Source of the DNA: Nitrospira sp. ND1
GTDB lineage: Bacteria > Nitrospirota > Nitrospiria > Nitrospirales > Nitrospiraceae
Reading direction: 5' to 3'
Assembly (NCBI RefSeq): GCF_900170025.1
Contig: NZ_FWEX01000006.1
Span: 3,091,839-3,155,838 of the forward strand
Length of the DNA: 64,000 nt
The notes below the pieces were generated by a model that saw only the letters and a list, made by a program, of their open reading frames with translations, was not told the origin of the DNA and ran no database searches. A program made the translations under genes and the position numbers. Below, in pieces: positions 2,101-19,079 of the stretch (positions within the stretch are counted from its first letter, which is position 1; every line of letters starts with the position of its first letter).

Positions 2101-3459
2101 TTAGCCCCCGCCTGCGTACTTCTTCAGTTTTGCCAACAGCGTTTTGTAGTCGACCCGGAGGGTTTGGGCGGCTTTGGTTTTGTTGCCGCCGCTGGATTCC
2201 AGCACCAGTTGAATATGCAGGCGTTCGATCTCGTCGAGGGGCAGGTGCGACCGGTCGTCGGGTGATGATGCCGATGCCGCCCGAGGGAGCACCTGCAGGA
2301 CTTCTTCGCTGGTGATCGGTCCGGAGTTCGGACTCATCAGGACAATGCGTTCGATCACATTGCGAAGTTCGCGCACGTTTCCAGGCCAGCGGTAGGTCGC
2401 CAGGTGTGCGAGGGCTTCCGGGCTGAGCGTTCTCGTTGCGGTGCCCGGGATGCGAAGGTGGTGCAGAATATGATCGGCCAGCACGGCAAGATCCTCCGGT
2501 CGTTCGCGCAACGGCGACACATGCAGCGTCACCGTGTTGATACGATACAGGAGATCGTCTCGAAACCGGCCTTGCAGCACGAGTTCCTGGATGTCCCGAT
2601 TCGTGGCGCAGATGATCCGGACATCGGCCCGGAGTGTGCGCGTACTGCCGACAGGACGGTATTCCTTCCGGTCGAGAAAGCGCAGCAGGCTGACCTGCAT
2701 CGGTCCCGGCATTTCGCCGATCTCGTCGAGAAACAACGAGCCGCCTTCGGCGGCGGCGATCAGTCCGGGTTTCGCCTGGGCGGCGCCGGTAAACGCCCCT
2801 TTCTCGTAACCGAATAACTCGCTCTCCAGCAACTCTCGACTCACCGCTCCGCAATTGACGGCGATGAAGGGTCCGCCGGCCCGACGGCTGTGCGCGTGCA
2901 GCAGCCGCGCGACCACGTCTTTCCCGGAACCGGTTTCCCCCTGAATCAGCACCGGGGCCTGCGACGGCGCCACTTGCGCGATCTGTGTCTTCACCGTCCG
3001 CCAGGCCTGGCTGGTCCCCTCGACGATCGCGTCCTGGCGATACCCGCCGTGCCGCGCCGCCAGATTCTCGCGGCGAAGTTCCCGCACCGTGCGAAGTCTT
3101 GCGAGAGCGGCCTTCACGGCCGCGCCGTCGAACGGGGTGTCCTTGATGAGGAAATCCCACGCGCCGTCTTTCATCGCAGCCACGGCGTCTTTGACGTCGC
3201 CATGGCCGGTCAGGACGATCACATCGACGTCCGGTTGATGCTCCTTCACCCAGCGCAAGATCGCCCGGCCGTCGAGACCGGGCATGCGGAGATCGGTGAT
3301 GACGCAGTCGAAGGAGGCCGTACGGAGTCGATCGAGGCCTTCCTGCCCGCCACCCGCCGTCTGCGTGTCGCAGCCTTCCTCGCGGAGCGCCTGTTCCACG
3401 ACGAGACGGACAAATTCTTCGTCGTCGACAATGAGGGCGCGCATGTGTTCCATGGTCAT
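2101..3459 (-). CDS. NtrC-type sigma-54-dependent response regulator
   Basis: The 452-residue protein has a receiver domain (acidic pair D12/D13, phosphoacceptor D56 in ITDLRMPG, T84, K106), a sigma-54 AAA+ domain with Walker A GETGSGK at 174-180, the sigma-54 contact loop GAFTGA at 221-226 and Walker B LFLDEIG at 242-248, and a Fis-type helix-turn-helix at the C-terminus (GGNKTKAAQTLRVDYKTLL). It should activate sigma-54 promoters after phosphorylation. The ATG at 3459 is 4 bases after the stop of the kinase gene, so the pair is translationally coupled; the longer frame to 3588 would lie inside the kinase gene and has no family match. No target promoter is obvious, but the position downstream of the oxyanion cluster suggests that it could control it. 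Confidence 0.93.
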   Translation of the reverse strand: MTMEHMRALIVDDEEFVRLVVEQALREEGCDTQTAGGGQEGLDRLRTASFDCVITDLRMPGLDGRAILRWVKEHQPDVDVIVLTGHGDVKDAVAAMKDGAWDFLIKDTPFDGAAVKAALARLRTVRELRRENLAARHGGYRQDAIVEGTSQAWRTVKTQIAQVAPSQAPVLIQGETGSGKDVVARLLHAHSRRAGGPFIAVNCGAVSRELLESELFGYEKGAFTGAAQAKPGLIAAAEGGSLFLDEIGEMPGPMQVSLLRFLDRKEYRPVGSTRTLRADVRIICATNRDIQELVLQGRFRDDLLYRINTVTLHVSPLRERPEDLAVLADHILHHLRIPGTATRTLSPEALAHLATYRWPGNVRELRNVIERIVLMSPNSGPITSEEVLQVLPRAASASSPDDRSHLPLDEIERLHIQLVLESSGGNKTKAAQTLRVDYKTLLAKLKKYAGGG

Positions 3460-3463
3460 GAGG

Positions 3464-5050
3464 TCACGCTGAAGCAGGATGAGGTGAAGAGGATGGCCGG
3501 TCGACGACGGATTCGGCGCGCTCCGGAAAGGCCAGATAGAATTTACTGCCCGCTCCGGGAGCGGATTCCACCCAGACCCGGCCGTCATGTTTGTCCATGA
3601 CGAGTTTCACGATCGCGAGGCCCACGCCCGTGCCCTCGTATTCCTGTGGGCTGTGGAGCCGCTCGAAGAGCCCGAAGATCTTGTCGTAGTGAGACGGGTC
3701 GAAGCCGATCCCGTTATCCTGAACCCACAGGATGCGTTCGTGTTCCATCCGGGTGCCGCCGATGGTGATGGTCGGCGGTGAGGCGTGGCGGGAGAACTTC
3801 GCTGCATTGTCGAGGAGGTTCGCGATCGCTTGACGGATGCTCACCGGTTCACCGTAGAGATCGGCAAACGGCAAGGCGACCTGGATTTTCGGCTTCGGGC
3901 CCTGGAGTCCGTTGAAGCGGTCGGTGAGGAGGGTGGTGATCATTTCCAACACATTGAAGCGCTGACGAGGCAGGTCCTGTTGCTCCAGGCGGGAATATTT
4001 GAGCAGCGCGTCGATCATATGGGTGAGGCGCAGCGCGGAGCGGCGAATCACATCGATCTGGTGCCGGGTCTGCGCGTCGCCGCCGTCGGCGAATTGTTTT
4101 TCCAGCAGGGAGGAGAACCCTTCGATCTCCCTCAACGGACCTTTGAGGTCATGCGCGACGGAATAGGTAAACGCTTCAAGTTCTTTGGTCTTCCGGGCGG
4201 TCGCGGCGGTCTGTTCGCGCAGGCTGGTGACCATGGATGAGAGAGAGGCGGCCAAGGTGCCGACTTCGTCACGGCCGGGCCAGGATTCGAATTGCGCGGT
4301 CAGGTCGTGGTGAGCGACACGGTCGGCCGTGACGGAGAGACGTTGGAGCGGCTTGGCGATCTGCCGATTGACGGAGACATAGATGACGGTGATCACCAGA
4401 CCGAGCACGGCGACCAGGCTTAACGCAATCAGCCGCGCCTGTTGGAGCAACAGATCGCCTTCCACTTTCATTTCCACATCGATATCCCGATGGGCGGCGA
4501 CCAGTTGGTCGAGATTGTTCATCAGTTCCACGATGAGGCCGTCGGTCTTCGCGACCGGTGAGGGTGCCACGCCGGCGCGCTGAGGTCCGGTGAGCGCGGT
4601 CTGCCACAAGGCGGACAGCTCCTGGAGGATCAGATCGATCCGGGCGATGGCGCGATCTTCCTGGTCGGCGAGATCCATGCGTTGATGCTGGGTCAGCATG
4701 CCCAGGAGAATCGGGTGGGTGCGGGCCGCATGGGTGGAACGATACAGGTCGAGGGAACTGCGGATCTGTTCGGCGTGGCGGCTGAGCCGGGCAAGGGTGT
4801 CGGCCGCATCGGCCTTCGTGATCTGCTCCAGAAACAGATGCAGCGTGAGGTTCATTTCATAGGCTGAACGTTGCATGGTGGCCGCGGTCACGATGGCGGG
4901 GACCGTAATGCGTTTGTGGCGGTCCACATAGCTGTTGATGCGACTGAGGTACACGAGCAGCGCTGTGAGGCTCAAGGCCAGCAGGCTGAGGATGACTCCG
5001 AAGGAGATGAAGAATTTTTGTCCGATCGAGCGGTCGTGGAGCCAGCGCAT
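3464..5050 (-). CDS. Membrane sensor histidine kinase with HAMP domain
   Basis: The 528-residue protein starts at the ATG at 5050, preceded by GAGG; the longer frame upstream has no kinase homology. TM1 is about residues 13-35, then a roughly 170-residue mostly helical periplasmic sensor region, TM2 about 207-227, and HAMP about 228-280. The dimerisation/phosphoacceptor motif YSVAHDLKGPLRE places the phosphorylated His at 300. The ATPase part has an N box (NLLDNAAKFS), G1 (VQDNGIGFD) and G2 (GTGVGLAIVK). It is the cognate kinase of the adjacent sigma-54 regulator, whose start lies 4 bases beyond its stop. The ligand is unknown. The gene follows the interrupted sulfate-binding-protein gene on the same strand. 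Confidence 0.93.
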   Translation of the reverse strand: MRWLHDRSIGQKFFISFGVILSLLALSLTALLVYLSRINSYVDRHKRITVPAIVTAATMQRSAYEMNLTLHLFLEQITKADAADTLARLSRHAEQIRSSLDLYRSTHAARTHPILLGMLTQHQRMDLADQEDRAIARIDLILQELSALWQTALTGPQRAGVAPSPVAKTDGLIVELMNNLDQLVAAHRDIDVEMKVEGDLLLQQARLIALSLVAVLGLVITVIYVSVNRQIAKPLQRLSVTADRVAHHDLTAQFESWPGRDEVGTLAASLSSMVTSLREQTAATARKTKELEAFTYSVAHDLKGPLREIEGFSSLLEKQFADGGDAQTRHQIDVIRRSALRLTHMIDALLKYSRLEQQDLPRQRFNVLEMITTLLTDRFNGLQGPKPKIQVALPFADLYGEPVSIRQAIANLLDNAAKFSRHASPPTITIGGTRMEHERILWVQDNGIGFDPSHYDKIFGLFERLHSPQEYEGTGVGLAIVKLVMDKHDGRVWVESAPGAGSKFYLAFPERAESVVDRPSSSPHPASA

Positions 5051-5273
5051 GCAGGCCTCGTGGTGAGGGCCTACGGTATCACAGTGACTGGTGTGGTGCC
5101 AGTAAGGTTCATGCCGAATAGGCGGCCACGGACGGCATCGCCTTCCGTGTATGTCCGCCAATGAACCGCTGTTCGAAAGACTTGCCTCCGAGACGGGCGG
5201 GAAGATGGCGTGGCCCGCTTCTACACAGGTGCATGCGCGCGCCACGCGTTTCGAATAGTTGGACAATCCGCGG

Positions 5274-6299
5274 CTATCGTGTTTCCTCCACCGCTTTCGT
5301 CCAGGCTCCTTGCGGACTGAACTGTGCGGCGAAGACCCGATCCCATCCTCCGAGATCTTCGATCGTAAATACATGCGGTGGATGGAGAAAGGCAGATGCA
5401 GAGGCCCTGGCGACGGCCTCGTTCGCCGGCCGGAAACCGAATTCCACAAAGGCCTGTTGGGCTTCTTCCCCGTTGAGGAACGAGACGAAGGCATCGGCCA
5501 GATCCCGCACATGGTGCTGGTCGGCGTTTCGATCGATCACCGCGATAGGGTTTTCGACCACGACTGTTTCGGCCGGAAAGATCAACTCGTAAGGACGGCC
5601 TTGTTTGATCCGCGGCAGTAATTCGTTTTCATAGGTCACAATGACATCGCCCACGCCGCGCTCAAACGTCGTCACCGATTCGCGCCCGCTCTTGTCCATG
5701 ACCTTGACGTGTCGTTGCACGCACCTGACAAGATCGACGGCATGCTGATCCAGCGCGGGGCCGGCGAGACCCTGTTGTTTCCCGTGATTGAGGCCGGCTC
5801 CGTAGATCGCGATGACATCTCACATCGCACCGCCGGATGTTTTCGGGCTCGGATAGAGGACTTCGACGCCTGACTGGGTGAGGTCTTCCCAGCCTTGGAT
5901 GGCCTTGGGGTTTCCTTTGCGGACACCCAGTGCGACGATTGATGTCGTCACGATGCCTTTCTGGGCACCTTGCTTCCAGTCATGCATCACAAGGCCGGCC
6001 TTCACCAACTGCTGCAGGTCACTCTCCAACGACAGGGCGGCGATGTCCGCATCGAGCCCTCCGACGACGGCTCGTGCCTGCGCACCGGACGCGGCAAATG
6101 AACTCCGGACCTGAATGGTCTCTCCTGTCTTCTGCTTCCACTGCCGGACAAAGGCGGAAATGATTCGCTTTTCGTAGGCCTCCTTCGGCACGCTGTAGGC
6201 TGCGAGCAGGAGCTCTCGGGTCTCGGCGCCGGCGATCGCCGGTAGGATTGCGAACAATGATACAAGTGCCGTGAGGCCGGTGAGGGGCTTGATGTTCAT
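5274..6299 (-). pseudogene. Sulfate/thiosulfate ABC-type binding protein, interrupted by one in-frame TGA
   Basis: Conceptual translation from the ATG at 6299 (GGAG 11 bases upstream) gives a signal peptide ending near AIAGA, then ELLLAAYSVPKEAYEKR and GGLDADIAALSLESDL, typical of the Sbp/CysP family, and PSPKTSGGAM. Codon 160 (5820-5822) is TGA, and the same frame continues without any shift as DVIAIYGAGL, then TTFERGVGDVIVTYENE and the family C-terminus to 5274. Family members usually have Trp right after this KTSGGA(R/M), so one TGG-to-TGA change explains it. The total length of about 340 codons is normal. Either the gene is recently dead, the base is a sequencing error, or the stop is read through. 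It lies between the DUF2325 gene and the kinase on the same strand. Confidence 0.85.
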
Positions 6300-6341
6300 G
6301 TTGATAATCACTCCAGTGATCCGTACAAAATCAGTTGCTGA

Positions 6342-6674: not shown

Positions 6675-7406
6675 CTAGGGTTGTGAATGCTTCTCGCTTC
6701 CGCGTTCCAGCCCTGGCTGTACAGGCATGGACGACAGCGCCTCTCGATAGCGGATCTGGAGCTCTTCCCGTTGATCGGGGGCGAAGAGGCGGCTGCCTGA
6801 ACTGACCTTGACCAGAAATTCCTCCGGCTCGAATGTCACATCGTGCGCGGCAGATGCTTCCGGAATATTCGGCAGTTGCCGATCGTATTTGCTGATATCG
6901 GGACCGGGGCTGTGCCGGTCATGTACCCCGCTGATGGTGAGGTGCAGGATGGGACCTCTGATGGAGATCCAGCCGGTCGTCGTTTCTTCATCCCCCTGGT
7001 CCGTGGCCTGGCTCAGGTGGAAGTACACCCTCTCCGTCGGGCCGGCCTGTGCGAGGCCCTTCGCGAGAGGCGGCGCCAAGACGGTAATTTCTTCGTTCCG
7101 GAAGGCCCTCGTGCGATCCGCTTCCCCGACAAACAACCGATGAATGACGTTTCGCCGCTCCCATGCGCGGACCCCACGGAGCAGGGTTCCGACCTCGGTT
7201 GCCGTCACTGCGGCGGGATGCGCATTGGCCGTCGAGTCCGGATCCTGTTCCACTCGCACCTCGCTCAGACCCGACTGATAGATGGTCTTCGGCGGCGTGA
7301 CCGGTCTGCCGGCGCAACCGGTGACCAAGGTCAGTCCGATGAGGGCGAGCATCACCCGTTTCGACAAAGGATGTGCCTGCTGTGCTGTGTTCCGGATGCC
7401 GTTCAT
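6675..7406 (-). CDS. Lipoprotein of an unnamed family, paired with a ModA-like binding protein
   Basis: The 243-residue product has a signal peptide ending in a lipobox, LTLVTG before Cys31, so it should be membrane-anchored. The body contains FRNEEITVLAPPLAKGLAQ and GPTERVYFHLS. The lipoprotein at 12,167-12,817 has the equivalent motifs FREDEVEVLAPHLATALQK and GPEERVQFEV, so the two are paralogues. The ATG at 7406 overlaps the stop of the ModA-like gene (ATGA) and is preceded by a perfect AGGAGG. I do not recognise a named domain. Its constant pairing with a binding protein and a porin suggests a periplasmic or outer-membrane accessory part of an anion uptake route, which is inference. Confidence 0.75.
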   Translation of the reverse strand: MNGIRNTAQQAHPLSKRVMLALIGLTLVTGCAGRPVTPPKTIYQSGLSEVRVEQDPDSTANAHPAAVTATEVGTLLRGVRAWERRNVIHRLFVGEADRTRAFRNEEITVLAPPLAKGLAQAGPTERVYFHLSQATDQGDEETTTGWISIRGPILHLTISGVHDRHSPGPDISKYDRQLPNIPEASAAHDVTFEPEEFLVKVSSGSRLFAPDQREELQIRYREALSSMPVQPGLERGSEKHSQP

Positions 7407-8227
7407 GGTTTCACCTCCTGCCGCTGAACGAGACCGACGTCTCCCGTGACACGATCGAATCCGTATTCCTGAAAAAGGGCTTGGGTCTGGGGCGCGAGCA
7501 AGAACTCGATGAAGTCGCCTGCGCCGGAAACGTTCTTCGCCGTCCATACGGCTGCGACGCCGTAGCGGACCGGCGTGTGGGATTCGACTGGGGCCGTATC
7601 AAGGATACGAACCTTGTCGTTAGAGGCGGCATCGGTGCGATACACCACGCCGACTTCGGCTTCGCCTTTGGCCACGAGATCGAGCACCGCGCGCGAGTGC
7701 TCGCCGAAGACGTATTGGGACTTCAGTTTGGGTTCGAGTTTGCTGTACTTCAAAAACTGAGCGGCGACTTTTCCCACCGATGACGTCTTGGGATCGCCGA
7801 TCGCAATTCGCCGGACGGGCACGGTTTCGAGGTCATGGATCGTCCGCACCGGAGCCGGAAGCGCGGCCCCGGTGATCAGGACCAGCGAGGTGCCGGCGAA
7901 GGCGCGTTTGGTGCCTTGAATGATCAGCCCCTTCGTTTCGAGCTGATCGATTTCGTCAAAGAGCGACGGTAGGAAAATGTCGACCGGCGCGCCCTCTTCG
8001 ATCTGCTTGCGGAGGCTTTGTGAGGGGCCGTAGATGACCCGCACGTTGATGGCAGGGTGCTCGGCCTCAAATCGTGGCAGCACTTTTCTGAGCGCGTCTT
8101 TTAAGCTGTTGGCGGCGGCAATGGTCAATGTCTCCGGCTGGGCCTGCGCCGACGGCACCACTCCGGTGATGCCGATCAGCATACTGAAGAAGAGCCAGAT
8201 GCCGAAGAATGTGTTTCGTCGTGTCAT
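7403..8227 (-). CDS. ModA-family molybdate/oxyanion periplasmic binding protein
   Basis: The 274-residue protein has a signal peptide (cleavage near PSAQA) followed by ETLTIAAANSLKDALRKVLP, the ModA N-terminal signature. YGPSQSLRKQIEEGAPVDIF corresponds to the second anion-binding loop, and GEAEVGVVYRTDA to the C-lobe motif of ModA. In ModA the Ser of AAxS and the Ser of the S-S/Q-S loop contact the oxyanion, and both positions are present. It is coupled to the downstream lipoprotein by a 4-base overlap and lies 36 bp after the porin. No permease or ATPase gene is on this strand; the ModBC pair at 16.1-17.9 kb may serve it. Molybdate, tungstate or another tetrahedral anion are possible ligands. 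Confidence 0.87.
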   Translation of the reverse strand: MTRRNTFFGIWLFFSMLIGITGVVPSAQAQPETLTIAAANSLKDALRKVLPRFEAEHPAINVRVIYGPSQSLRKQIEEGAPVDIFLPSLFDEIDQLETKGLIIQGTKRAFAGTSLVLITGAALPAPVRTIHDLETVPVRRIAIGDPKTSSVGKVAAQFLKYSKLEPKLKSQYVFGEHSRAVLDLVAKGEAEVGVVYRTDAASNDKVRILDTAPVESHTPVRYGVAAVWTAKNVSGAGDFIEFLLAPQTQALFQEYGFDRVTGDVGLVQRQEVKP

Positions 8228-8263
8228 GATCGTCCTCCCGTGACTGTCGCGTGTTCAGGTTGT

Positions 8264-9883
8264 CTAGAAAAAGAACTGATATTGGACATTGATTCGATTC
8301 TCGATGAGGTCTCGTCCGAATCCCGGCTGGCTCTCGAACGGGAACCGGTCCGGGGCGCGGCCGCCACTCCCCAGGGTGATGTTGGAGTAATCGACGACGA
8401 GCCGGTTGTTATAGGTACCGTCGAAACTGTAGTTAATCGCAGCGCCGAACTCCTTCACCAGATCATCGACCTGCTGAGTCGAGGGATCCATAAATCCATA
8501 TCGTACGGCCACCTCGAGCTTTCGTGGAATGATGTATTTGCCCACCTGGGCGTACCAACCGTAGGCCTGGCCGAGATTGACGGCCGGGCCTAACACGGTT
8601 GTGGTGACCGGATCGAACGGGATTGTTCCGGAATCGGCGTTCCGGACCCGTTGGTGGCGATAGTATCCTTCGGCCTGGAAGGACCAGCCCTGATACTTCG
8701 CGATAAAATCGGCTTCATAGGTTTGAAAATCCCAGATGCCACCGCCGAGCAGACGTCCGTTGTACGCTTTCGTGACACGTTGACGGTAGGCGCGATCGGT
8801 AATATCCGAGCGGATCGAACTCAGGTAGTTTTGGGCAGGGTTGTAAGCATAGCCGAAGGCGATGGCCATCTGCGGCGTGCGTGAATTCAGAATATCTCCC
8901 TGGCCATACCCGGGATTGCCGGAAATTTTGTACAGCAGACGGACCGTATACATCATCTCGCCCGTCAGAATGCGGGTGTCGTAATTGAATGTACGGCGCT
9001 GGGCGGTCGGAAGGCTTGAATTGTTGGGAAGCGCTTGGCTGACGGCCGTGCCTTCTCGTGCCAGGTTGGCACCGACTCCCCCCCAGATTCCGAAGGTATA
9101 GTTGAATTTATACTGGTCTTCATCGCTGGAAATGCTGACGCCGATATCGCGGCTTCCCTGTTGATTGGCTGCAAACGCGTTCTGGACAATCAGATTGTCC
9201 GCGAATGTTGAGGTTGCCATGGAACTGATCGTGGCGCGATTGAACCAGACGCGCTGCTGACCTGCCTGGATGGTTAACCAGGGGATGTGCCAGGACGAGA
9301 TGTAGGCGTCGAGGAGGCCCGCACGTCCGCTGCCTCCCTCTTGATCCCATGTCGTCTGATCGAAGGCCCAGGAAATGTTGTAGCGAAAGTCAGGATCGAA
9401 GGCGTAGCCCAGGAACTGAAGGCGGGCGCGCGGCACGCTGAACTGGTTGGAGTCGCTTTGCTTACTGACGGCTCGGTATTCCACCTGACCGCCGAGGATC
9501 TCGGGATTTCTCGAATCGCCGACGGTGCCCCATCCCCCATTGTAGGCGCTGTGGCTGTACCGAACCTGGGTGAGCAAGCGCAGTTTCAAAAAGAATTTCG
9601 ACCCCACGCGGAAGTTCAGCCCGTTGTTGACGTCGATGCTGTAGTTGGGTTTGGCAATCTGTTCCCGGGTCTCCAGGACTCTCAGGCCCTTATCGTATTC
9701 TTCCTGGGTGATGATGCCTTTTAAGAAAAGGTATTTGAGCCCCGGGTCTTCGCCTGAATAGTACTTCCACTTCCCATCCTTCTTAACCAGCTGGCCTTCC
9801 TCGACCGCTTGAACGGAGGTGATGGTTCCAGCGATCAAGCTGCCGGCCACCACGGCAATTCCAAAAAAAGTGTAGGCTCTCAT
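8264..9883 (-). CDS. Outer-membrane beta-barrel porin, OprO/OprP-like
   Basis: The 539-residue protein has a signal peptide (cleavage near TSVQA), a short N-terminal region containing GIITQEEYDKGL, and then a long series of alternating amphipathic strands ending in the aromatic NVQYQFFF, the usual outer-membrane insertion signal. The N-terminal segment and the strand NGLNFRVGSKFFLKLRLLTQ resemble the phosphate-selective porin O/P family. The ATG at 9883 has GGAGG 7 bases upstream. It is the first gene of the minus-strand arm and has a paralogue at 12,902-14,668 that shares GTITQEEYDGV and a similar C-terminus. Placement with molybdate binding proteins suggests an oxyanion channel; the specific ion cannot be read from the sequence. 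Confidence 0.85.
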   Translation of the reverse strand: MRAYTFFGIAVVAGSLIAGTITSVQAVEEGQLVKKDGKWKYYSGEDPGLKYLFLKGIITQEEYDKGLRVLETREQIAKPNYSIDVNNGLNFRVGSKFFLKLRLLTQVRYSHSAYNGGWGTVGDSRNPEILGGQVEYRAVSKQSDSNQFSVPRARLQFLGYAFDPDFRYNISWAFDQTTWDQEGGSGRAGLLDAYISSWHIPWLTIQAGQQRVWFNRATISSMATSTFADNLIVQNAFAANQQGSRDIGVSISSDEDQYKFNYTFGIWGGVGANLAREGTAVSQALPNNSSLPTAQRRTFNYDTRILTGEMMYTVRLLYKISGNPGYGQGDILNSRTPQMAIAFGYAYNPAQNYLSSIRSDITDRAYRQRVTKAYNGRLLGGGIWDFQTYEADFIAKYQGWSFQAEGYYRHQRVRNADSGTIPFDPVTTTVLGPAVNLGQAYGWYAQVGKYIIPRKLEVAVRYGFMDPSTQQVDDLVKEFGAAINYSFDGTYNNRLVVDYSNITLGSGGRAPDRFPFESQPGFGRDLIENRINVQYQFFF

Positions 9884-10109
9884 CTGATCTAACCTCCGAG
9901 TTGGTGATATTCAGAACCGTTGATATCTTGTAAAATGTTAATTCATATAGAATTTATTAAATATCTATATTCCGGTGAGAAATTAAATACATCAAGTTAT
10001 GTAAGATTATCAACAATTATGATTATAATTTATGTGCCCATGAAATACTTCTCCTTGCTGAAATCAATACTTGACTCAGGTAAAGCATTATGTCATTTTT
10101 CGTCCCGTC
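9884..10109 (+). promoter_or_regulatory. AT-rich divergent control region between the two arms of the oxyanion island
   Basis: This 226-bp gap is far more AT-rich than its surroundings. For the minus arm, a possible -35 TTGATG (9990-9995, complement) and -10 AATATA (9966-9971, complement) have an 18-bp spacer. For the plus arm, TTGATA (9920-9925) and TCATAT (9943-9948) have a 17-bp spacer, and a perfect TATAAT lies at 10,024-10,029 without a good -35. TACTTGACTCAGG at 10,068-10,080 is identical to part of the IS1595 terminal repeat found at 22.5 kb. No clear ribosome binding site precedes the regulator ATG at 10,110. The element assignments are by eye only. Confidence 0.45.
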
Positions 10110-11300
10110 ATGAAGAAGGCGCCCGCTGCTGAACAGTCCATTCAGGTAGAGAATCTCTTGGCCCCGACACGCCAAGCCAAGGGTTTGTCACGCGTCGAGC
10201 TTGCCTCGCAAGCCGGAATTACGCGCCAAGCCGTCCATGCCATCGAAACGAATCAATACCTTCCCACTACAGCCGTAGCGCTCCGCCTTGCGGATGCTCT
10301 GGGCTGCCGCGTGGAAGATCTCTTCCGGCTGCTTCCTCAAGAAGACATCGTTGAGGGTCAATGGTCGGACTCCGCAACGGTTCAGAAGACGCCGCAGGAA
10401 GCCGTTCGCGTCAAGGTCGCGCGGGTGGGCGCGCGATACATTGTCCGACCCGTCGTCGATCTGGGAGAGGTGCTCAATTATGCGGTCCCCGCAGACGGCC
10501 TTCTGGTTCCCTCCCGTGGGGTCCGGACAGGAGCCGCCGCTTCACCGCGTCGCGTGCAGGTCCGCCTGCTTCGGGACCGCCGTGTCATTGAGCAGGAGAT
10601 AGCCGTGGCTGGTTGTGACCCCTCGGTCTTTCTGGCCGGTGATTATCTCCGGCGGCATCAGGACAGTTGCACTGTGGTGGGATGGAATCTCGGCAGTACC
10701 GCGGCAATTGAAGCGCTCAAGCGGGGAGAGGTGCACATTGCGGGCGTGCACGTTGTGGATGCGCAGTCCGGAGAGTCTAACTTGCCCTATCTGCGCCGCC
10801 ACCTGAAAGGGAACGACTATCTCGTGGTCACCTTTGCGGTGTGGGAAGAGGGGCTCCTGGCAGCTGCCGGGAATCCCAAATCGGTGCGTGGCGTTGAGGA
10901 TCTGGTACGACCGGAGATTCGATTCATCAATCGTGAAGCCGGCGCCGGTGCCCGGCTTCTCCTCGATCAGAAGCTCATTGCGGCCGGTATGACTCCCGAG
11001 AGTGTCGCCGGGTACGCAACCATCGCCCGCTCCCATTTTCAGGTGGCACGATCGATTGCCGAGGGACATGCCGATGTGGGGCTCGGCGTTCGCGCGGCGG
11101 CGCAACTGTTCGGCCTGGAATTCCTTCCGTTGCAACAGGCCCGGTACGATCTCGTGATTCCTCGCGTGCACATCAACGACCATCCGAGTATCGAGAGCTT
11201 TCTCAACATTCTCGTCAGTCGCCCGTTTCGAACGGAGATCGATGCGCTCGGCGGGTATGACATGAGTCAAACCGGGACGGTCCACGCATTACGGTCATGA
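10110..11300 (+). CDS. Transcriptional regulator: XRE-type HTH fused to a molybdate-binding-protein-like domain
   Basis: From the ATG at 10,110 the protein has 396 residues. Residues about 12-70 form a helix-turn-helix (TRQAKGLSRVELASQAGITR, then AVHAIETNQYLPTTAVALRL) of the Cro/XRE type. Residues about 95-385 resemble the PBP-like domain seen in molybdate-responsive and excisionase-type regulators: VVGWNLGSTAAIEALKRGEV, HIAGVHVVDAQSGESNLPYL, GHADVGLGVRAAAQLFGLEF. This architecture senses a small ligand, commonly molybdate, and controls transport genes. The frame could begin at a TTG at 10,071, but that TTG lies in a promoter-like sequence. The stop overlaps the next gene by 4 bases (ATGA). 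It is probably the local oxyanion-responsive switch for both arms. Confidence 0.85.
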   Translation: MKKAPAAEQSIQVENLLAPTRQAKGLSRVELASQAGITRQAVHAIETNQYLPTTAVALRLADALGCRVEDLFRLLPQEDIVEGQWSDSATVQKTPQEAVRVKVARVGARYIVRPVVDLGEVLNYAVPADGLLVPSRGVRTGAAASPRRVQVRLLRDRRVIEQEIAVAGCDPSVFLAGDYLRRHQDSCTVVGWNLGSTAAIEALKRGEVHIAGVHVVDAQSGESNLPYLRRHLKGNDYLVVTFAVWEEGLLAAAGNPKSVRGVEDLVRPEIRFINREAGAGARLLLDQKLIAAGMTPESVAGYATIARSHFQVARSIAEGHADVGLGVRAAAQLFGLEFLPLQQARYDLVIPRVHINDHPSIESFLNILVSRPFRTEIDALGGYDMSQTGTVHALRS

Positions 11301-12127
11301 AACGTCAGTACCGCTCACAACCACTGTTGTTATGTGCTGCCTTCCTTATGGGTCTGCTGAGTCTTACCCCCGCACCCTGTGTGTCTGCCGAGCCTCTGGT
11401 CATCGCCGCTTCACCGAGTCTTGCCACACCGCTTGAGGCGCTGACGCGGGCTTATGAAGCCGCCCATCCAGATGTACAGGTGAAGCTGTATTTTGATTCC
11501 GGGTTGGATCTTCGCCGGATGATCGCCGGTATGGAGAATAGCCCGACGGGGCAGTATTTCATCGGCACGGGGCCGATCCACCTCATTGCACCGGGCGGCG
11601 ACGAACTCATTACCCGCCTCCAGCAAAAATATTATGTCTTGCCCGGTTCCAAACGACCCTATGCCACCGTCTCTCTGGTGATGATTGTCCCTGAATCGCT
11701 GGTCGAGGCGCCTCTGTCTTTCGTGGCCATGGCCCGCGACACGCGTATGCGCGTGGCCGTGGCGGATCCGGATATGACGCTGTTGGGCCAAAAGACCCGT
11801 GATCTGTTCAAGGCATTGGGGATTGCCGACGTCTTGAACGACCGGATGGATGTGGCGACGGATGCCCGCGGGGTGGTGGACCATGTGCTGAACGGGCAGG
11901 CCGACGTGGGGATTATTTTCGGCCCGGACGCAGTGGAAAAGGCCGATCGAGTTCGAGTGGTCGCGGTGGCATCGGAGAAGGAGGGGCGTCCGATTCTTCA
12001 TTCGATGGCGATGGAGCGATATTGTCCGAACCGTACGCTGTGCGACGATTTTCTTGCCTATGTGCAGTCGGCTGAGGCCGGCACTATTTTGAAGCGGCTC
12101 GGGTATGGCGTGCCGACGAAGCCGTAG
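11297..12127 (+). CDS. ModA-like periplasmic binding protein, diverged
   Basis: The 276-residue protein has a signal peptide (cleavage near PCVSA) then EPLVIAASPSLATPLEALTR, the start of a type II binding-protein lobe. It keeps the ModA order (NGQADVGIIFGPDA near residue 200) but lacks the usual GAP-D-LF motif after the second anion loop, which here reads YFDSGLDLRRMIAGME. Ligand specificity may therefore differ from that of the canonical ModA at 14,681. The ATG overlaps the regulator stop, so it is translated with it. It is followed by the paralogous lipoprotein and porin, mirroring the minus arm. Confidence 0.8.
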   Translation: MKRQYRSQPLLLCAAFLMGLLSLTPAPCVSAEPLVIAASPSLATPLEALTRAYEAAHPDVQVKLYFDSGLDLRRMIAGMENSPTGQYFIGTGPIHLIAPGGDELITRLQQKYYVLPGSKRPYATVSLVMIVPESLVEAPLSFVAMARDTRMRVAVADPDMTLLGQKTRDLFKALGIADVLNDRMDVATDARGVVDHVLNGQADVGIIFGPDAVEKADRVRVVAVASEKEGRPILHSMAMERYCPNRTLCDDFLAYVQSAEAGTILKRLGYGVPTKP

Positions 12128-12166
12128 CGCGTGCTCAATGTGAGAGTCAGTAGTTGGAGGATGGTC

Positions 12167-12817
12167 ATGCGGGTATCAAGTGAACATACAGGGTTGCTGA
12201 ATCTGTGCATGGTGGTGTTCGGCATTCTGGTCCTGGGAGGATGTGCCAGGCTGCCTTATACCAAAACGGTTGTGCATGAAGATCAACGGGTGGCCGTGAG
12301 GCTTCAGGCCGAAGTCTCGCCGGCCGGATACTCGCATCCGGTCGAGATCCCTCCGCCATATATCGCGGCCATTCTTCGCGGATTGTCTTTGCGGGAGCAG
12401 CAGAGTCTGCCGCTTCGCTGGTTTGCCGAGGAGGTGCCTCCACGCCAGGTCTTTCGTGAGGATGAGGTAGAAGTCTTGGCGCCTCACCTTGCCACGGCGC
12501 TGCAAAAAGTGGGACCGGAAGAGCGTGTCCAGTTTGAGGTGTTCGCGCCAGGCATGAATCCCCGGTACCGCCGAGACGTGACCGGAGGCTGGCTGGCCGT
12601 TCGTGAGCACTATCTACATATCACGATGGACTACTTCCATACGCAACAACCGGTCGAAAAGTCAGACGCCTACGACTACAACTATCCCACTCCCTGGACT
12701 CCGCCCAATACCTACCTCCTCTACTTCGAACCGGGCCGTTTTTATCTCACCGACTCCAAGACCCATTCGCGCGCGGTGGACTATCGGGAGTTTCTCAAAA
12801 CGCTCCCGCCGCCGTAG
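12167..12817 (+). CDS. Lipoprotein, paralogue of the 6,675-7,406 lipoprotein
   Basis: The 216-residue protein has a signal peptide and lipobox (LVLGG before Cys26). It shares with the minus-arm lipoprotein the motifs FREDEVEVLAPHLATALQK, GPEERVQFEV, a GW..VR..YLHIT block and a tyrosine-rich C-terminal part. The ATG at 12,167 was chosen because GGAGG lies 6 bases upstream; a GTG at 12,131 is also in frame. It lies 39 bp after the binding protein and 84 bp before the porin. The function is unknown. The duplicated gene set argues that it works with the binding protein and porin. Confidence 0.75.
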   Translation: MRVSSEHTGLLNLCMVVFGILVLGGCARLPYTKTVVHEDQRVAVRLQAEVSPAGYSHPVEIPPPYIAAILRGLSLREQQSLPLRWFAEEVPPRQVFREDEVEVLAPHLATALQKVGPEERVQFEVFAPGMNPRYRRDVTGGWLAVREHYLHITMDYFHTQQPVEKSDAYDYNYPTPWTPPNTYLLYFEPGRFYLTDSKTHSRAVDYREFLKTLPPP

Positions 12818-12901
12818 ACCGCCGGGGCCGATTCAATTCAGCGGAACCCTGTTCCATCATCACATCATTGTGTGGGCGAGAGCCTGTGCGGAGGACCTGA
12901 G

Positions 12902-14668
12902 ATGCAAAGGATGGCGTCACCCGTGTCACTACTCATTCGATCGTATTCCAGCTTCGGCCTATCCGGTGTGGGCCTGGGGCTCTTGCTGTGTTGCCTGAGT
13001 CTGTTCCATTCGACCGACGCGATCTCGGCCGAGGCCGGTCGGTTGGTGGAGAAAGACGGGCGATATGTGTTCGTGGAGAGTATGGATCCGGCGATGAAGC
13101 TGCTGTTGGAGCGGGCTGTGAAGCAGGGCACGATCACCCAGGAGGAATATGACGGGGTGGTGCGGGCTTCACAGGAGCGTGCCTATCTCCTTCAGCCGAG
13201 TTTTCGGGCCTGGTACGATCGCGGATTCAATTTATCGATGAACGACAACGCGTTTTTTCTCAAGATCCGTGCGAGGTTTGCGACTCGCTACACGCAACGA
13301 TACCGGAATGACGCCTACCGCGAATCCGGGGACTCCAAGAATTTTCCCGAATTGCTGGGCGTCTTCGGAGATTACCGGGCCAACCGGTCCATCGACCAGT
13401 CCTCCACGTTCAATTTGCGGATTGCGCGTCTCTATTTTATGGGGCACCTGTTTAGCCCGGATTTCAGATACTACATTCAATTGGCGGGGGAAACGGCGGA
13501 GAATGCCCAGTCACCGGGTGCCTTGTCCGTGCTGGATATGAATGTGACGAGCACTCATCTCCCGTGGATGAATGTCCAAGTTGGTCAGTATAAAGTCTAT
13601 TTTAACCGGTCGCAGATCAACTCGACCGCTTCCATGCAGTTCGCGAGTCGTGCCCTGGTCATGGATGCCTTTACCGCGAGCGGCATCAATCGCCGGGATG
13701 TGGGACTCACGATCATGAACGATGAAGAGGTCTACCCGATCAACTACTACCTGGGAGTCTTTAATGGTGTGGGCCCCCTGGTCAACCGGTTCGCTCAATT
13801 TAACAGCGAAGAGGCGACGGTGGGGTGTCCGGGCGGCGCCACCGGAGGCAATCCCTTTCCGTCACCGGCAGGGTGTCCGACGAATACGCGTAACTTGAAC
13901 GCCAATCTCCGGACCAATGTGAATGAGTTGATGTACGTGGCGCGACTCCAGGCGAATCTCATGGGCCGGCCGGGATACGGTGAGGGCGATCTCGCCTATT
14001 CGGAGAGTCCGCAAATGGCGGTGGGCGGCGGGTATGCCTATAATCCCTCGATCGATACGAGCAGCAACAACGCCTTCGTGGGAATCGATCTGGCGAATTT
14101 GCACGTGCGGCGGTCCTTGGCGGCGCTGGGCAATGGACGAATGCTCGGCCAGGGGGTGGTGGATTTTTCGACCTGGACCCTGGACTATGTGTTCAAATAT
14201 CGCGGCTTTTCTCTGCAAGGGGAGTATTGGTATAGAAATGTGACTCGCCACAACAAGGGGCTGCCCTGCATGCAAACCGCCGTGGTGGGAGGGCCCTGTA
14301 CCGTATTCTCGCCGCAGGAGTTCGGCAATTCGACCGGCTGGACCGTGCAGTCCGGCTACTACCTCATTCCGAGAAAAGTGGAAGTCGCCGCGCGGTACGC
14401 CTGGTGGGATCCTGATACTCGCTCCGGCGGCGATCTGATCAAGCAAGTGGATGTCTCCCTGAACTGGTTTCTCAGCGGGACCTATGACCACCAAATCATG
14501 TTGACCTATTCCAACATCGCGATGGGCCAGGACGGGTTCGCCATCGGGCGGAGCGCTCCTTTGCCGGCGGTGGGCGCGACCTTCCCTTCCGGGACGGTGC
14601 CGCTCGATTCACGAGCCGGAACGTTGATTGAAAATGCCGTCCGCATCCAGTATCAAATCTTTTTCTAA
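12902..14668 (+). CDS. Outer-membrane porin, OprO/OprP-like, paralogue of the 8,264-9,883 porin
   Basis: The 588-residue protein has a hydrophobic signal segment (GVGLGLLLCCLSLF) and a mature N-terminus EAGRLVEKDGRYVFVESMDP followed by QGTITQEEYDGVVRASQE. The body is strand-rich, with SPQMAVGGGYAYNPS matching the paralogue's TPQMAIAFGYAYNPA, and ends VRIQYQIFF, an outer-membrane insertion signature. The ATG at 12,902 has GGAGG 7 bases upstream. Two cysteines in a GC-rich loop (CPGGATGGNPFPSPAGC) are absent from the other copy. It lies 12 bp before modA, so a shared transcript with the molybdate transporter is likely. Confidence 0.85.
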   Translation: MQRMASPVSLLIRSYSSFGLSGVGLGLLLCCLSLFHSTDAISAEAGRLVEKDGRYVFVESMDPAMKLLLERAVKQGTITQEEYDGVVRASQERAYLLQPSFRAWYDRGFNLSMNDNAFFLKIRARFATRYTQRYRNDAYRESGDSKNFPELLGVFGDYRANRSIDQSSTFNLRIARLYFMGHLFSPDFRYYIQLAGETAENAQSPGALSVLDMNVTSTHLPWMNVQVGQYKVYFNRSQINSTASMQFASRALVMDAFTASGINRRDVGLTIMNDEEVYPINYYLGVFNGVGPLVNRFAQFNSEEATVGCPGGATGGNPFPSPAGCPTNTRNLNANLRTNVNELMYVARLQANLMGRPGYGEGDLAYSESPQMAVGGGYAYNPSIDTSSNNAFVGIDLANLHVRRSLAALGNGRMLGQGVVDFSTWTLDYVFKYRGFSLQGEYWYRNVTRHNKGLPCMQTAVVGGPCTVFSPQEFGNSTGWTVQSGYYLIPRKVEVAARYAWWDPDTRSGGDLIKQVDVSLNWFLSGTYDHQIMLTYSNIAMGQDGFAIGRSAPLPAVGATFPSGTVPLDSRAGTLIENAVRIQYQIFF

Positions 14669-14680
14669 GGAGCCTCGTCT

Positions 14681-15442
14681 ATGGCACGTCTGCTGCTGTG
14701 TGTGATGTTCGTGCTGTTGTGTCGGCCCGCCATAGCATTGGTCGATGACATTGCGGTGGCCGCCGCGTCCGACTTACAGTTCGCCATCAAGGAATTGATC
14801 GTGGAGTATGAGAAACAAACCGGTCATCATGTAAAACTGTCGCTGGGGTCGTCCGGGAATTTTTACGCGCAGCTTCAGCAGGGTGCGCCGTTCGACCTCT
14901 ATTTTTCAGCGGACATCGGGTATCCGAAGAAACTCGAGGAGGCCGGTCTGACGGTGCCGGGGTCGCTCTACCGGTATGCCGTGGGCCGAGTCGTGCTGTG
15001 GGCGCCGAAGCAGTCGCCGGTTGAGGTGTCGAAGGGGTTGACGGTGCTTCGAGACGCGGCGGTGAGAAAGATTGCGATTGCCAATCCCAAGCATGCGCCC
15101 TATGGTCGTGCGGCGGTAGCGGCCATGGAGCAGAGCCAGGTGTATGCAGAGGTGAAGGATCGCCTGGTGCTGGGAGAAAACATTTCCCAGGCGGCGCAGT
15201 TCATCGAGTCCGGGGCCTGCGATGTCGGCATCATTGCCCTGTCCCTGGCGATGGCGCCGGTCATGAAGAGCGCCGGCTCGTACTGGCTGATTCCGGCTGA
15301 GGCCCATCCGCCGTTGGAACAGGGCGCGGTCATCATGAAACAGTCGAAACAGCAGGACGCGGCCAGGCACTTTCTTCAGTTTATGCAAAGCCCTCAAGGG
15401 CAGGAGGTCATGACTCGTTATGGATTCACGCTGCCGAATTAG
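14681..15442 (+). CDS. modA: Molybdate ABC transporter, periplasmic binding protein
   Basis: The 253-residue protein has a signal peptide (cleavage near RPAIA), then VAAASDLQFAIKEL, LSLGSSGNFYAQLQQGAPFD and LYFSAD, all canonical ModA elements; the AAAS and GSS loops supply the Ser residues that bind molybdate. The C-lobe has GACDVGIIALSLAMAP and a typical PEGQ-like ending (QSPQGQEVMTRYGF). It is preceded by AAGGAG, follows the porin by 12 bp and leads into Mop, ModB and ModC. It captures molybdate (or tungstate) in the periplasm for ModBC. This is the most typical of the three ModA-type proteins here. Confidence 0.93.
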   Translation: MARLLLCVMFVLLCRPAIALVDDIAVAAASDLQFAIKELIVEYEKQTGHHVKLSLGSSGNFYAQLQQGAPFDLYFSADIGYPKKLEEAGLTVPGSLYRYAVGRVVLWAPKQSPVEVSKGLTVLRDAAVRKIAIANPKHAPYGRAAVAAMEQSQVYAEVKDRLVLGENISQAAQFIESGACDVGIIALSLAMAPVMKSAGSYWLIPAEAHPPLEQGAVIMKQSKQQDAARHFLQFMQSPQGQEVMTRYGFTLPN

Positions 15443-15782
15443 TTGCTGGATGCCTGCGCTTGCATTGGGCGCAGCCGTGCTGATCGCCGGTTGTTCGGAG
15501 GCCGTGTTATTGACCCATGAAACCGGCCAGGGCGGTGTAGTGACCTATCTTTATAAAGATGAGCGAGGTGGTCCGATGGGATCGCCGTACCGGCGAGAAG
15601 CCCTGAAGGTCATGGCGGAGAAATGCCCTGCCGGGTACCACGTGGTGAAAGACGGGCAGGTGCAAAGTTACAGCAGCGGGTCGAGTGTGGAGGGGGCTGA
15701 GGGCGAGGAGGGGACACGACGGTGGGGGATTCAGTTCGAATGTAAGTCAGGCGGGGACGATAGGACTACGGACAGGAAATAG
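15420..15782 (+). CDS. Small lipoprotein in the molybdate operon
   Basis: The 120-residue product begins at an ATG overlapping the end of modA by 23 bases, with AGGAGG 12 bases upstream inside modA. The signal peptide ends AVLIAG before Cys25, a lipobox. The mature part (VTYLYKDERGGPMGSPYRR, KCPAGYHVVKDGQ, then a Cys near the end) has two further cysteines that could form a disulfide. The RREALK..A..CP pattern resembles small secreted lipoproteins of unknown function. An alternative start at 15,450 would leave a very short signal. Co-translation with modA suggests a role near the inner-membrane transporter or the outer-membrane channel, but this is unproven. Confidence 0.7.
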   Translation: MDSRCRISCWMPALALGAAVLIAGCSEAVLLTHETGQGGVVTYLYKDERGGPMGSPYRREALKVMAEKCPAGYHVVKDGQVQSYSSGSSVEGAEGEEGTRRWGIQFECKSGGDDRTTDRK

Positions 15783-15866: not shown

Positions 15867-16070
15867 ATGAAACTCAGCGCGAGAAATCAATTCCAAGGCC
15901 AGGTCGTTCGAATCACCGATGGCCAGGCAATGGCAGAAGTCGTGGTGAAGGTCGGCAACTTGGAATTCGTGTCGGCGATTACCGAAGGCTCTGTCAAAAG
16001 TATGGGGATCAAAGTCGGCGATGCCGTCACGGTTGCGGTGAAGGCGACCGACGTCATCGTCGGAAAATAA
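15867..16070 (+). CDS. mop: Molbindin (Mop), single TOBE-domain molybdate-binding protein
   Basis: The 67-residue cytoplasmic protein MKLSARNQFQGQVVRITDGQ, then AMAEVVVKVGNLEFVSAITEG and GIKVGDAVTVAVKATDVIVGK, is a complete TOBE/Mop domain. The SARNQ start and the KATDV(I/M) end are diagnostic. Mop proteins form oligomers that store or buffer molybdate. A GGGGGAC ribosome binding site lies 6-7 bases upstream of the ATG. It sits between the small lipoprotein and modB. Confidence in the family is high; storage versus delivery cannot be resolved. Confidence 0.93.
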   Translation: MKLSARNQFQGQVVRITDGQAMAEVVVKVGNLEFVSAITEGSVKSMGIKVGDAVTVAVKATDVIVGK

Positions 16071-16136: not shown

Positions 16137-16823
16137 GTGAACGAGATCATGAACTGGATTGCGATTTGGGTGACGTTCAAGCTGGCTGCTTCCACGGCGC
16201 TTGTCCTCATGATCGTCGGCCTCCCGATCGCCTATTGGGTGAGCTTTTCGCGCCGGCGCTGGAAGTTTCTCGTCGAGTCGGTGGTGGCACTCCCATTGGT
16301 GCTGCCGCCGACGGTGCTGGGATTTTATATTCTTGTCGCCATCGGGCCGCACAGCCCGCTCGGACGGTTTTACAACGAGCTCATCGGGCATCCGCTGCCC
16401 TTTACCTTCGAAGGCCTTCTGCTCGCCTCCATTCTCTATAGCCTCCCGTTTGCCGTGCAGCCGTTCGCTGCGGCGTTCGAGCAGGTGGATCGGCGGTTGA
16501 TCGAAGCCTCCTGGACGCTGGGCGTGTCGAAGCTCGGCACGTTCTTCAAACTGATCGTGCCGCTGTCTAAAGCCGGATTGCTGACCGGTGCCGTGCTGAG
16601 CTTCGCCCATACGATGGGAGAGTTCGGAGTCGTCTTGATGGTCGGAGGAAACCTGGAGGGTGAGACACGCACTGTGTCCATCGATATCTACGATGAGGTG
16701 CAGGCCTTAAATTATGCCGGGGCTGCCAAGACCGCGCTCTTTCTCTTAGTCGTCTCATATGCCATCTTGCTCCTCGTGTATGCGGTCAATCGTAATGTGT
16801 GGGCAGCATGGCCGCGGAAATAG
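16137..16823 (+). CDS. modB: Molybdate ABC transporter permease
   Basis: The 228-residue integral membrane protein has five to six predicted helices and is the normal ModB length. ASTALVLMIVGLPIAYWVSF is the first membrane segment. VVALPLVLPPTVLGFYILVA and EASWTLGVSKLGTFFKLIVP (the EAA-type cytoplasmic loop that docks on the ATPase) are ModB signatures, and HTMGEFGVVLMVGGN is near-invariant. The start is either the GTG at 16,137 or the ATG at 16,149; neither has a strong ribosome binding site. The end overlaps modC by 25 bases. Confidence 0.93.
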   Translation: MNEIMNWIAIWVTFKLAASTALVLMIVGLPIAYWVSFSRRRWKFLVESVVALPLVLPPTVLGFYILVAIGPHSPLGRFYNELIGHPLPFTFEGLLLASILYSLPFAVQPFAAAFEQVDRRLIEASWTLGVSKLGTFFKLIVPLSKAGLLTGAVLSFAHTMGEFGVVLMVGGNLEGETRTVSIDIYDEVQALNYAGAAKTALFLLVVSYAILLLVYAVNRNVWAAWPRK

Positions 16824-17902
16824 ATATTCAACTCGTGAAGACGTTTCCCGGACGTGCGCCGATCAAGGCGCGGATCCGATATCCGGTCGAGGCGTCGACT
16901 GTCTTAATCCTCTTCGGTCCGTCAGGCTCCGGAAAAACGACGATCCTTCGATCGGTGGCCGGGCTGGAATGGCCGGAAGAGGGCACCATTCAATTTGTGT
17001 CGCGCACGTGGCTGGATACCGCGTCAGGGGTCAGGGTGGCGCCGCAAGATCGTCACATCGGCTACATGGCGCAGGACTATGCGCTCTTCCCGACCTACAC
17101 GGTGGCGGGAAACATCGGGTATGGCCTCCACCATCTCTCCGCACAGGATCGCAAAAAGCGCGTCGATGAGATGGTGGAGCTGTTCCAGCTGCGTGGACTG
17201 GAGACGGCGAAGCCGCGGGAGCTGTCCGGCGGACAACAACAACGGGTAGCCCTTGCGCGCGCGGTGGCACCTCGTCCGTTGTTGCTCTTGTTGGACGAAC
17301 CGCTTTCCGCCTTGGATGCGCCGACCCGGGTGCACTTGCGTGATGAACTGCGGAGTCTGCTGAAACAGCTGGCGCTGCCGTCGATCATCGTTACGCATGA
17401 TTGGACTGAGGCCCTCACCCTCGGCGATGTGATGGCGGTCATCAGTGCAGGGAACGTGCTGCAGGTAGGCCCGCCGATCGAGGTGTTCAGCCGGCCTCAA
17501 AACGCGGATGTTGCGCGTGTCGTGGGGATTGAAACCGTTGTGAAGGGGCGGGTGGTCGGATCCTCGGACGGTATGGTGCAGGTGAGCGTGAACGGGACCA
17601 GGTTGACCGCCGTGGAAGGTGAATCGGCAGGCCCAGACGTGTTCGTGTGTATCCGATCGGAGGATGTGGTGCTGGAACGTGGGCAAGCCACCGCGAGCAG
17701 CGCGCGGAATCATCTGGCCGGGACCGTCGTCTCGGCCACGGTGCTCGGGGCATTGGCGCAAGTGACGATCGATTGTGGGTTTCCCCTTGTCGCCATGGTC
17801 ACTCGTTCGACGGTCGAAGAGTTCGGGTTGTCATCCGGCGTTCCAGTCGTGGCCGCGATCAAAGCAGGTTCGGTCCACCTGGTGTCAAGGCAGAGCGAGT
17901 AG
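16799..17902 (+). CDS. modC: Molybdate ABC transporter ATPase
   Basis: The 367-residue protein has Walker A GPSGSGKTT (40-48), the signature LSGGQQQRVALARA (141-154), Walker B LLLLDEPLSALD, and the H-loop THDWTEAL. The C-terminal 130 residues contain a TOBE-like regulatory domain (SARNHLAGTVVSATVLG), the usual molybdate-sensing extension of ModC. The start is the GTG at 16,799, or an ATG at 16,808 inside the modB tail. With ModB and ModA it forms the inner-membrane importer. The TAG stop abuts the left end of a MITE-like repeat; its last base is the first base of the repeat arm. Confidence 0.94.
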   Translation: MGSMAAEIDIQLVKTFPGRAPIKARIRYPVEASTVLILFGPSGSGKTTILRSVAGLEWPEEGTIQFVSRTWLDTASGVRVAPQDRHIGYMAQDYALFPTYTVAGNIGYGLHHLSAQDRKKRVDEMVELFQLRGLETAKPRELSGGQQQRVALARAVAPRPLLLLLDEPLSALDAPTRVHLRDELRSLLKQLALPSIIVTHDWTEALTLGDVMAVISAGNVLQVGPPIEVFSRPQNADVARVVGIETVVKGRVVGSSDGMVQVSVNGTRLTAVEGESAGPDVFVCIRSEDVVLERGQATASSARNHLAGTVVSATVLGALAQVTIDCGFPLVAMVTRSTVEEFGLSSGVPVVAAIKAGSVHLVSRQSE

Positions 17903-18988: not shown

Positions 18989-19079
18989 CGACGGTTGCTT
19001 AGCAGGCTGCGGAAAAACTCGATTGTTGCGGAGGCTACGATCAATACGCTGTGCAGGTATCACCATAACCCGCATCCTG

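Follow-up and report, generated by a model that had tools for sequence, protein, structure and literature searches.

Can a molybdate uptake locus extend across the whole cell envelope, with an outer-membrane channel of its own and a lipoprotein beside it? The question is raised by a 64,000-nucleotide stretch of the genome of Nitrospira sp. ND1 (contig NZ_FWEX01000006.1, positions 3,091,839 to 3,155,838; the window), in which two sets of genes for a porin, a substrate-binding protein (SBP) and a lipoprotein lie on opposite strands. The analysis indicates a locus for molybdenum or tungsten uptake that quite probably has its own porin. That the locus spans the envelope, with the lipoproteins LipA and LipB serving the porin-SBP pair, is about an even call, and docking as the particular job of LipA and LipB is a tentative proposal reached indirectly. 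The earlier note on this DNA had suggested a lipoprotein that always accompanies a porin and a binding protein. The module that it described is real, duplicated and deeply conserved, and its theme was guessed well, but two members of a large lipoprotein family were mistaken for the whole.

Set A consists of the outer-membrane porin PorA (8264..9883, minus strand), the ModA-like binding protein SbpA (7403..8227, minus strand) and the lipoprotein LipA (6675..7406, minus strand; lipobox LVTGC). Set B comprises the divergent ModA-like binding protein SbpB (11297..12127, plus strand), the lipoprotein LipB (12167..12817, plus strand; lipobox VLGGC) and the OprP/OprO-type porin PorB (12902..14668, plus strand), with alternative upstream GTG starts at 12131 for LipB and 12872 for PorB. 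All six open reading frames (ORFs) exist where they had been placed, and the proposed paralogy was confirmed by sequence comparison for all three pairs: PorA and PorB share 35-36% identity over ~560 aa (E 1e-108 to 3e-111; hhalign probability 100), SbpA and SbpB 24% (E 3e-24), and LipA and LipB 27% (E 2e-22). In a whole-genome search, PorB was the sole other match of PorA, and the best match of SbpB was SbpA (73 bits), above the true ModA (20 bits). LipA and LipB formed sister clades (support 95/92) among nine groups of the family tree, a point at which the tree program gave a long-branch warning. The sets do lie on opposite strands, but their supposed mirror image is a cyclic permutation, with the order por-sbp-lip in set A and sbp-lip-por in set B when read outwards. 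Such a permuted and inverted arrangement could be explained by tandem duplication with loss plus an inversion.

Set B is the middle of an operon, of which the earlier note had stopped short on both sides, missing the regulator, ModA, molbindin, ModB and the ModC-like ATPase. The operon begins with a transcriptional regulator combining a helix-turn-helix (HTH) domain and a periplasmic-binding-protein (PBP)-like sensor domain (10071..11300, plus strand; PF12727 211.8 bits, HTH_3 42.2 bits), continues through SbpB, LipB and PorB, and ends with five further genes on the same strand. These encode ModA, a true molybdate-binding protein (14681..15442; TIGR01256 214.2 bits, cut-off 62.5), a small putative lipoprotein of 120 aa (15420..15782; a cysteine lies in a lipobox-like setting, and no Pfam or NCBIfam model scored above cut-off), the molbindin Mop of 67 aa between ModA and ModB (15867..16070; TIGR00638 65.1 bits, cut-off 55; PF03459 56 bits), the permease ModB (16137..16823; TIGR02141 228.5 bits, cut-off 182.6), and a ModC-like ATPase (16799..17902). 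The ATPase scored 244.1 bits with TIGR02142, under the cut-off of 285.05, and the remaining listed ATP-binding cassette (ABC) models likewise scored under theirs. Because ModA, ModB and Mop lie above curated cut-offs, the context of the locus is that of molybdenum. In a sister family, the operon was modA-modB-modC alone in 6/6 loci inspected, so the remaining genes were probably added in the family of Nitrospira. Two tandem TraT-like lipoprotein genes (window 18239-19883, minus strand) are a kept neighbour of set B in many Nitrospira loci.

The layout was conserved across 44 named loci, of which all but one are labelled Nitrospira, Nitrospiraceae or Nitrospirae/Nitrospirota and the remaining one uncultured Nitrosospira (L161). 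The order hth-sbpB-lipB was kept in 44/44 and porB followed in 42/44; of the two others, L167 ends with its contig, and L166 has a truncated LipB, with porB not found. Among 20 LipA genes in the named loci, porA lay within 3 kb in 17 and sbpA within 2.5 kb in 18, the exceptions being L155 and L166 near contig ends, L125 from a genome without porA, and the frameshifted L156. In L156, SbpA and LipA look fused, but this reading was rejected: the end of SbpA is out of frame, LipA keeps a separate start and lipobox, and the contig has porA split as well. At the sbpA-lipA junction, stop and start share 4 nt here, as they do in 12/18 named loci; the overlap is a single nucleotide in one further locus and 145 nt in the other five, where the gene caller had chosen an earlier LipA start. 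A third, diverged porA-sbpA-lipA set was seen in one genome of the family (G033, L092, 7272-10376, plus strand).

Presence of LipA or LipB coincided with presence of the porin. Among 61 relatives searched, PorA/PorB-type porins occurred in 39, including 32 genomes of the window's family, and these 32 were exactly those with LipA or LipB. A porin lay within 1.2 kb of 29/31 LipA genes and 33/33 LipB genes (62/64 together). The count used the 66 porin rows of the window's own family, leaving out divergent matches from seven sister-family genomes, two LipA rows at E ~2e-32 (other subfamily) and 14 LipB rows at E 2e-32 to 9e-31 (LipA cross-hits). The two distant LipA genes belong to G012, at a contig end, and G015, where porA was lost; there, between 12283 and 13712 of L054, what may be an 18-residue remnant is all that is left of porA, with SbpA and LipA persisting. 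Two Nitrospira genomes without the porins and without LipA or LipB (G013 and G018, assemblies 90% and 84% complete) also had no ModB above cut-off, so the whole locus is gone there, by loss or through assembly gaps. Constant company of the porin, as first claimed, thus holds for LipA and LipB but not for their family at large, which was matched in at least 59/61 relatives against 39/61 for the porin.

PorB is assigned to the OprP/OprO family by PF07396 (38.7 bits, gathering score 20.9) and by its structural model, for which the best matches were OprP (2o4v; Z 27.6, 344 aligned, root-mean-square deviation 3.7) and OprO (Z 27.4), followed by the next protein at 25.1. The model is of modest confidence (predicted local distance difference test, pLDDT, 65.6), with long inserts of low confidence, and identity to OprP and OprO is 17-18% over the aligned part; anion selectivity of PorB would follow from its family. 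No sequence-level alignment of PorA or PorB with OprP was found. PorA had no PF07396 match up to E 1 and reached no Pfam cut-off on its own, and it is classed only as a homologue of PorB. PF07396 proteins in the genome numbered three: PorB, one beside a PstS-type SBP gene, and one at C6:875307.

Both binding proteins scored above the ModA cut-off of TIGR01256 (62.5), SbpA clearly (163 bits; best PDB relative 4kd5) and SbpB marginally (70.3 bits). They were compared in an alignment of 18 SbpA, 40 SbpB and 35 ModA sequences plus the window's three, at the serines and the tyrosine that we take to be the molybdate ligands of Escherichia coli ModA. SbpA keeps two Ser and the Tyr at these presumed positions and differs from ModA at two, with V for A and S for V. 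In SbpB, Phe replaces the ligand Tyr, 12 residues are inserted in a loop, and two cysteines are conserved close to the C terminus; with its presumed ligand positions altered, SbpB may bind something else, or bind differently.

No curated family was found for LipA or LipB in Pfam (E up to 1) or NCBIfam (E up to 0.1). The AlphaFold2 model of LipB (pLDDT 84.3) is a small alpha/beta domain for which a sequence search among solved structures gave nothing usable, Foldseek a best E of 0.077 and VIA a best Z of 4.2. Weak matches to hot-dog-fold proteins and hydrolases (Z ≤4.2) were treated as noise, which does not make the fold new. The lipobox cysteine was invariant in the uncut 25-row lipoprotein alignment. 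The structure alignment excluded loci whose lipoproteins were split or short, and the LipA of L148, whose cysteine was mis-assigned, was omitted elsewhere. Ala occupies position +2 relative to the lipid cysteine in 17/18 LipA rows and 31/39 LipB rows, some of the others being mis-cut. In E. coli, the residue at +2 indicates the destination membrane of a lipoprotein, and by this sorting rule the prevailing Ala points to the outer membrane for LipA and LipB.

The intergenic regions between porA and the regulator gene have a conserved palindrome in common, ATTGTYRACAAT; the window has the copy ATTATCAACAAT, with one mismatch, at 10006..10017, and no exact copy was found in this genome. Within 350 bp of the regulator start, the palindrome occurred with at most one mismatch in 23/39 loci and at most two in 28/39, loci that are related by descent, so that the counts are not independent. 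A control of 822,655 bp, drawn from other loci in the same genome set, contained one site with at most one mismatch. Where the two sets lie apart, the palindrome stands 121-132 bp before porA (one mismatch in L082 and L084, two in L086); it was not found in 3/12 porA upstream regions examined in such genomes. Exact copies occurred in three of five genomes; the only further ones there, second exact sites in two genomes, lie inside long ORFs and were taken as chance occurrences.

These observations can be joined into a mechanism. An ancestral modABC operon would have gained PorB, SbpB, LipB and the HTH-PBP oxyanion-sensing regulator, after which the porin-SBP-lipoprotein block would have been duplicated to give porA-sbpA-lipA, permuted and inverted. 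PorA and PorB would let the oxyanion through the outer membrane. LipA and LipB, anchored in its inner leaflet, would hold or load SbpA and SbpB at the periplasmic mouth of the porin, and the cargo would then pass to ModA-ModBC, possibly including tungstate besides molybdate. The ATTGTCAACAAT DNA is a candidate target of the HTH-PBP regulator, which would bind ATTGTYRACAAT in the shared promoter and control both sets by oxyanion supply. Molybdate as the cargo, anion selectivity and the role of the regulator are what the known families would predict. The reading as an envelope-spanning locus is supported by the conserved layout, the co-occurrence of LipA and LipB with the porin, the sbpA-lipA overlap, the palindrome, and the recurrence of a porin and an SBP beside another member of the lipoprotein family, in the PstS niche described below.

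The neighbours of set A bear on which oxyanion is carried. Behind LipA lies a CysP-type sulfate-binding protein gene (5406..6311, minus strand), 89% identical over 302 residues to the N. defluvii copy; it is intact in N. defluvii and interrupted here by an in-frame stop that leaves the listed ORF 5820-6311. It is followed by a histidine kinase (3464..5512, minus strand) and a sigma-54 response regulator (2101..3588, minus strand), both assigned by Pfam and both conserved neighbours. A sulfate-binding protein gene stands behind LipA in many loci; in L082, CysT and CysW come next, and L069 and L080 have similar layouts. Set A may thus serve another oxyanion, sulfate or the nitrite or nitrate of energy metabolism, leaving molybdate to set B, an alternative that the two deviating positions of SbpA would also fit. 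SbpA is nevertheless well above the ModA cut-off and retains two Ser and the Tyr, the palindrome stands upstream of porA in genomes with linked and with unlinked sets, and set B has a porin of the same type; overall this alternative is rated possible, with the odds against it.

What the lipoproteins themselves do is best judged from their family. A scan with a profile, which had been proposed earlier, was run with one built from 17 divergent members, across which only C (of the lipobox), HP, L, F, L and G are invariant; FREDEVEVLAPHLA, previously quoted as a motif shared by the two lipoproteins, is LipB's own version, and the homology of the pair itself stands. The profile matched at least 84/245 genomes of the phylum, all of them, among the matches listed, in the class Nitrospiria. 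In this genome, nine copies were among the matches listed, and two of the nine adjoin PorA or PorB. The family as a whole is therefore found mostly away from this porin, and LipA and LipB are not.

The third copy here lies by a PstS-type SBP and another Porin_O_P protein, the fourth by an unclassified protein, perhaps a porin, and by a urea ABC operon, the fifth by another barrel-like protein, and others beside cyclophilin, atp and miaB genes. In a survey of 87 fetched places (7 in this genome, 80 in relatives), a subset of all family copies, the niches were cyclophilin (33), miaB (18), the urea operon (11), the atp operon (10), PstS (9), the protein P546 (5) and the Amt region (1). Each subfamily has one niche and forms one clade of the tree, or nearly so. 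The PstS niche contained a PstS-type SBP in 9/9 and a Porin_O_P protein in 8/9 loci, the ninth being a 4.3-kb contig. The urea niche contained UrtA in 9/11 and an unclassified protein, P506 (~500 aa, C-terminal Phe), in 11/11, one truncated; in L023 this gene (4605-6125, minus strand) stands beside the urea ABC operon, divergent from the family lipoprotein. P546 has a CxxCH motif and a C-terminal part that looks barrel-like by eye. Its representative in L021 (4164-5804, plus strand), with one CxxCH heme motif, lies directly upstream of the family lipoprotein and is possibly a cytochrome-porin. In L020, the family lipoprotein (5412-6314, minus strand) is directly behind the ATP synthase operon, a niche identical in 10/10 atp-type loci inspected.

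P506 may correspond to the porin described for urea uptake in Nitrospira. No link of P506 or P546 to the porins here was found by hhalign, and no family match for either, so that P506 is at most a putative porin. The passage on Nitrospira urea uptake in PMC11064514 describes an outer-membrane fmdC porin, and one lipoprotein subfamily sits at the urt operon, but that passage does not mention the lipoprotein, and P506 is only a candidate for the fmdC porin.

From these niches, the family, confined to Nitrospiria, may be a reusable adaptor coupling outer-membrane channels to SBPs (twice for molybdate, for PstS-type phosphate, and for urea), with molybdate the best developed case; this wider proposal is rather unlikely as a whole. 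Rated no higher is the explanation that the lipoproteins serve outer-membrane barrels only, in assembly, trimer stability, gating or as a periplasmic plug, and are unrelated to SBPs. Barrel or barrel-like genes adjoin the LipA, LipB, pst, p546 and urt subfamilies, whereas SBPs adjoin only some; the p546 subfamily lies 39-45 bp downstream of the CxxCH-bearing barrel-like gene in 5/5 loci, the urt subfamily lies by a barrel-like gene in 11/11, and the cyclophilin subfamily has an OEP gene next door. The barrel status of P506 and P546 is, however, an impression from sequence without an hhalign link or family match, the lipA gene overlaps sbpA and not porA, G015 retains LipA without PorA, and the atp and miaB subfamilies have no barrel neighbour.

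An equally doubtful alternative is that LipA and LipB are ordinary lipoproteins of the envelope, unrelated in function, from a Nitrospiria family rich in paralogues, whose neighbourhoods were kept by descent with no joint function. Seven further subfamilies have fixed niches, of which three show no evident link to uptake, and subfamilies that are single clades or nearly so are what vertical inheritance alone would produce. Descent does not readily account for two separate porin-SBP settings (molybdenum and PstS type) plus the urea one, nor for the presence and absence shared with the porin in 32 genomes and the 4-nt overlap with sbpA. Improbable is a role of SbpA and SbpB as extracytoplasmic sensors instead of cargo carriers, e.g., for the adjoining histidine kinase: most loci lack a second permease pair for them, the ligand positions of SbpB are altered and the kinase is behind set A in 13/20 LipA-bearing named loci, but only neighbourhood ties it to SbpA, and a porin next to a sensor is hard to explain.

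Several points weigh against the envelope-spanning molybdate locus itself. ModB was above cut-off in 52/61 relatives against LipB in 31 genomes; with ModB far commoner and many relatives having it without LipB, the lipoprotein is an addition and no requirement of molybdate import. SbpA and LipA are kept without PorA in G015, L093, one inspected PorB relative of a sister family, has no adjoining SBP or lipoprotein, and the Porin_O_P protein at C6:875307 has no called member of the lipoprotein family alongside among the matches listed. The family also occurs in places without SBP or porin, namely, the cyclophilin, miaB and atp niches. Phe in place of the presumed ligand Tyr may mean that SbpB does not bind molybdate, and the sulfate genes adjoining set A fit another oxyanion. 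The palindrome contains TTGACA, a -35 box, on the porA strand, and may therefore be only a promoter; it is absent or has two mismatches in 16/39 loci.

Compared with known systems, the locus agrees with ModABC with a molbindin in that ModA, ModB and Mop are above curated cut-offs and a ModC-like ATPase is present, and what it has beyond this is a porin of its own, the HTH-PBP regulator, a further ModA-like protein and a lipoprotein from a new family. SusC/SusD pairs an outer-membrane channel with a lipoprotein for one nutrient class; the Nitrospira locus has a porin instead of the TonB-dependent receptor, plus a periplasmic SBP, and the comparison is one of working principle only. In literature searches on dedicated molybdate porins, porin-SBP-lipoprotein tethers and molybdate uptake in Nitrospira, at the level of listings, no such arrangement was found, which is not proof of its absence.

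Nitrospira oxidises nitrite with a molybdenum enzyme, nitrite oxidoreductase, and molybdate supply can therefore limit nitrite oxidation. Passage of molybdate through the outer membrane is usually ascribed to general porins; with an OprP-like porin dedicated to it and tied to ModABC, this step would become testable. The candidate operator ATTGTYRACAAT together with the HTH-PBP regulator offers a direct handle on the system, and G015 is a natural test case for the role of LipA without its porin. Should the lipoprotein indeed link channels with binding proteins for several nutrients, it would represent a new principle of periplasmic delivery in globally important nitrifiers.

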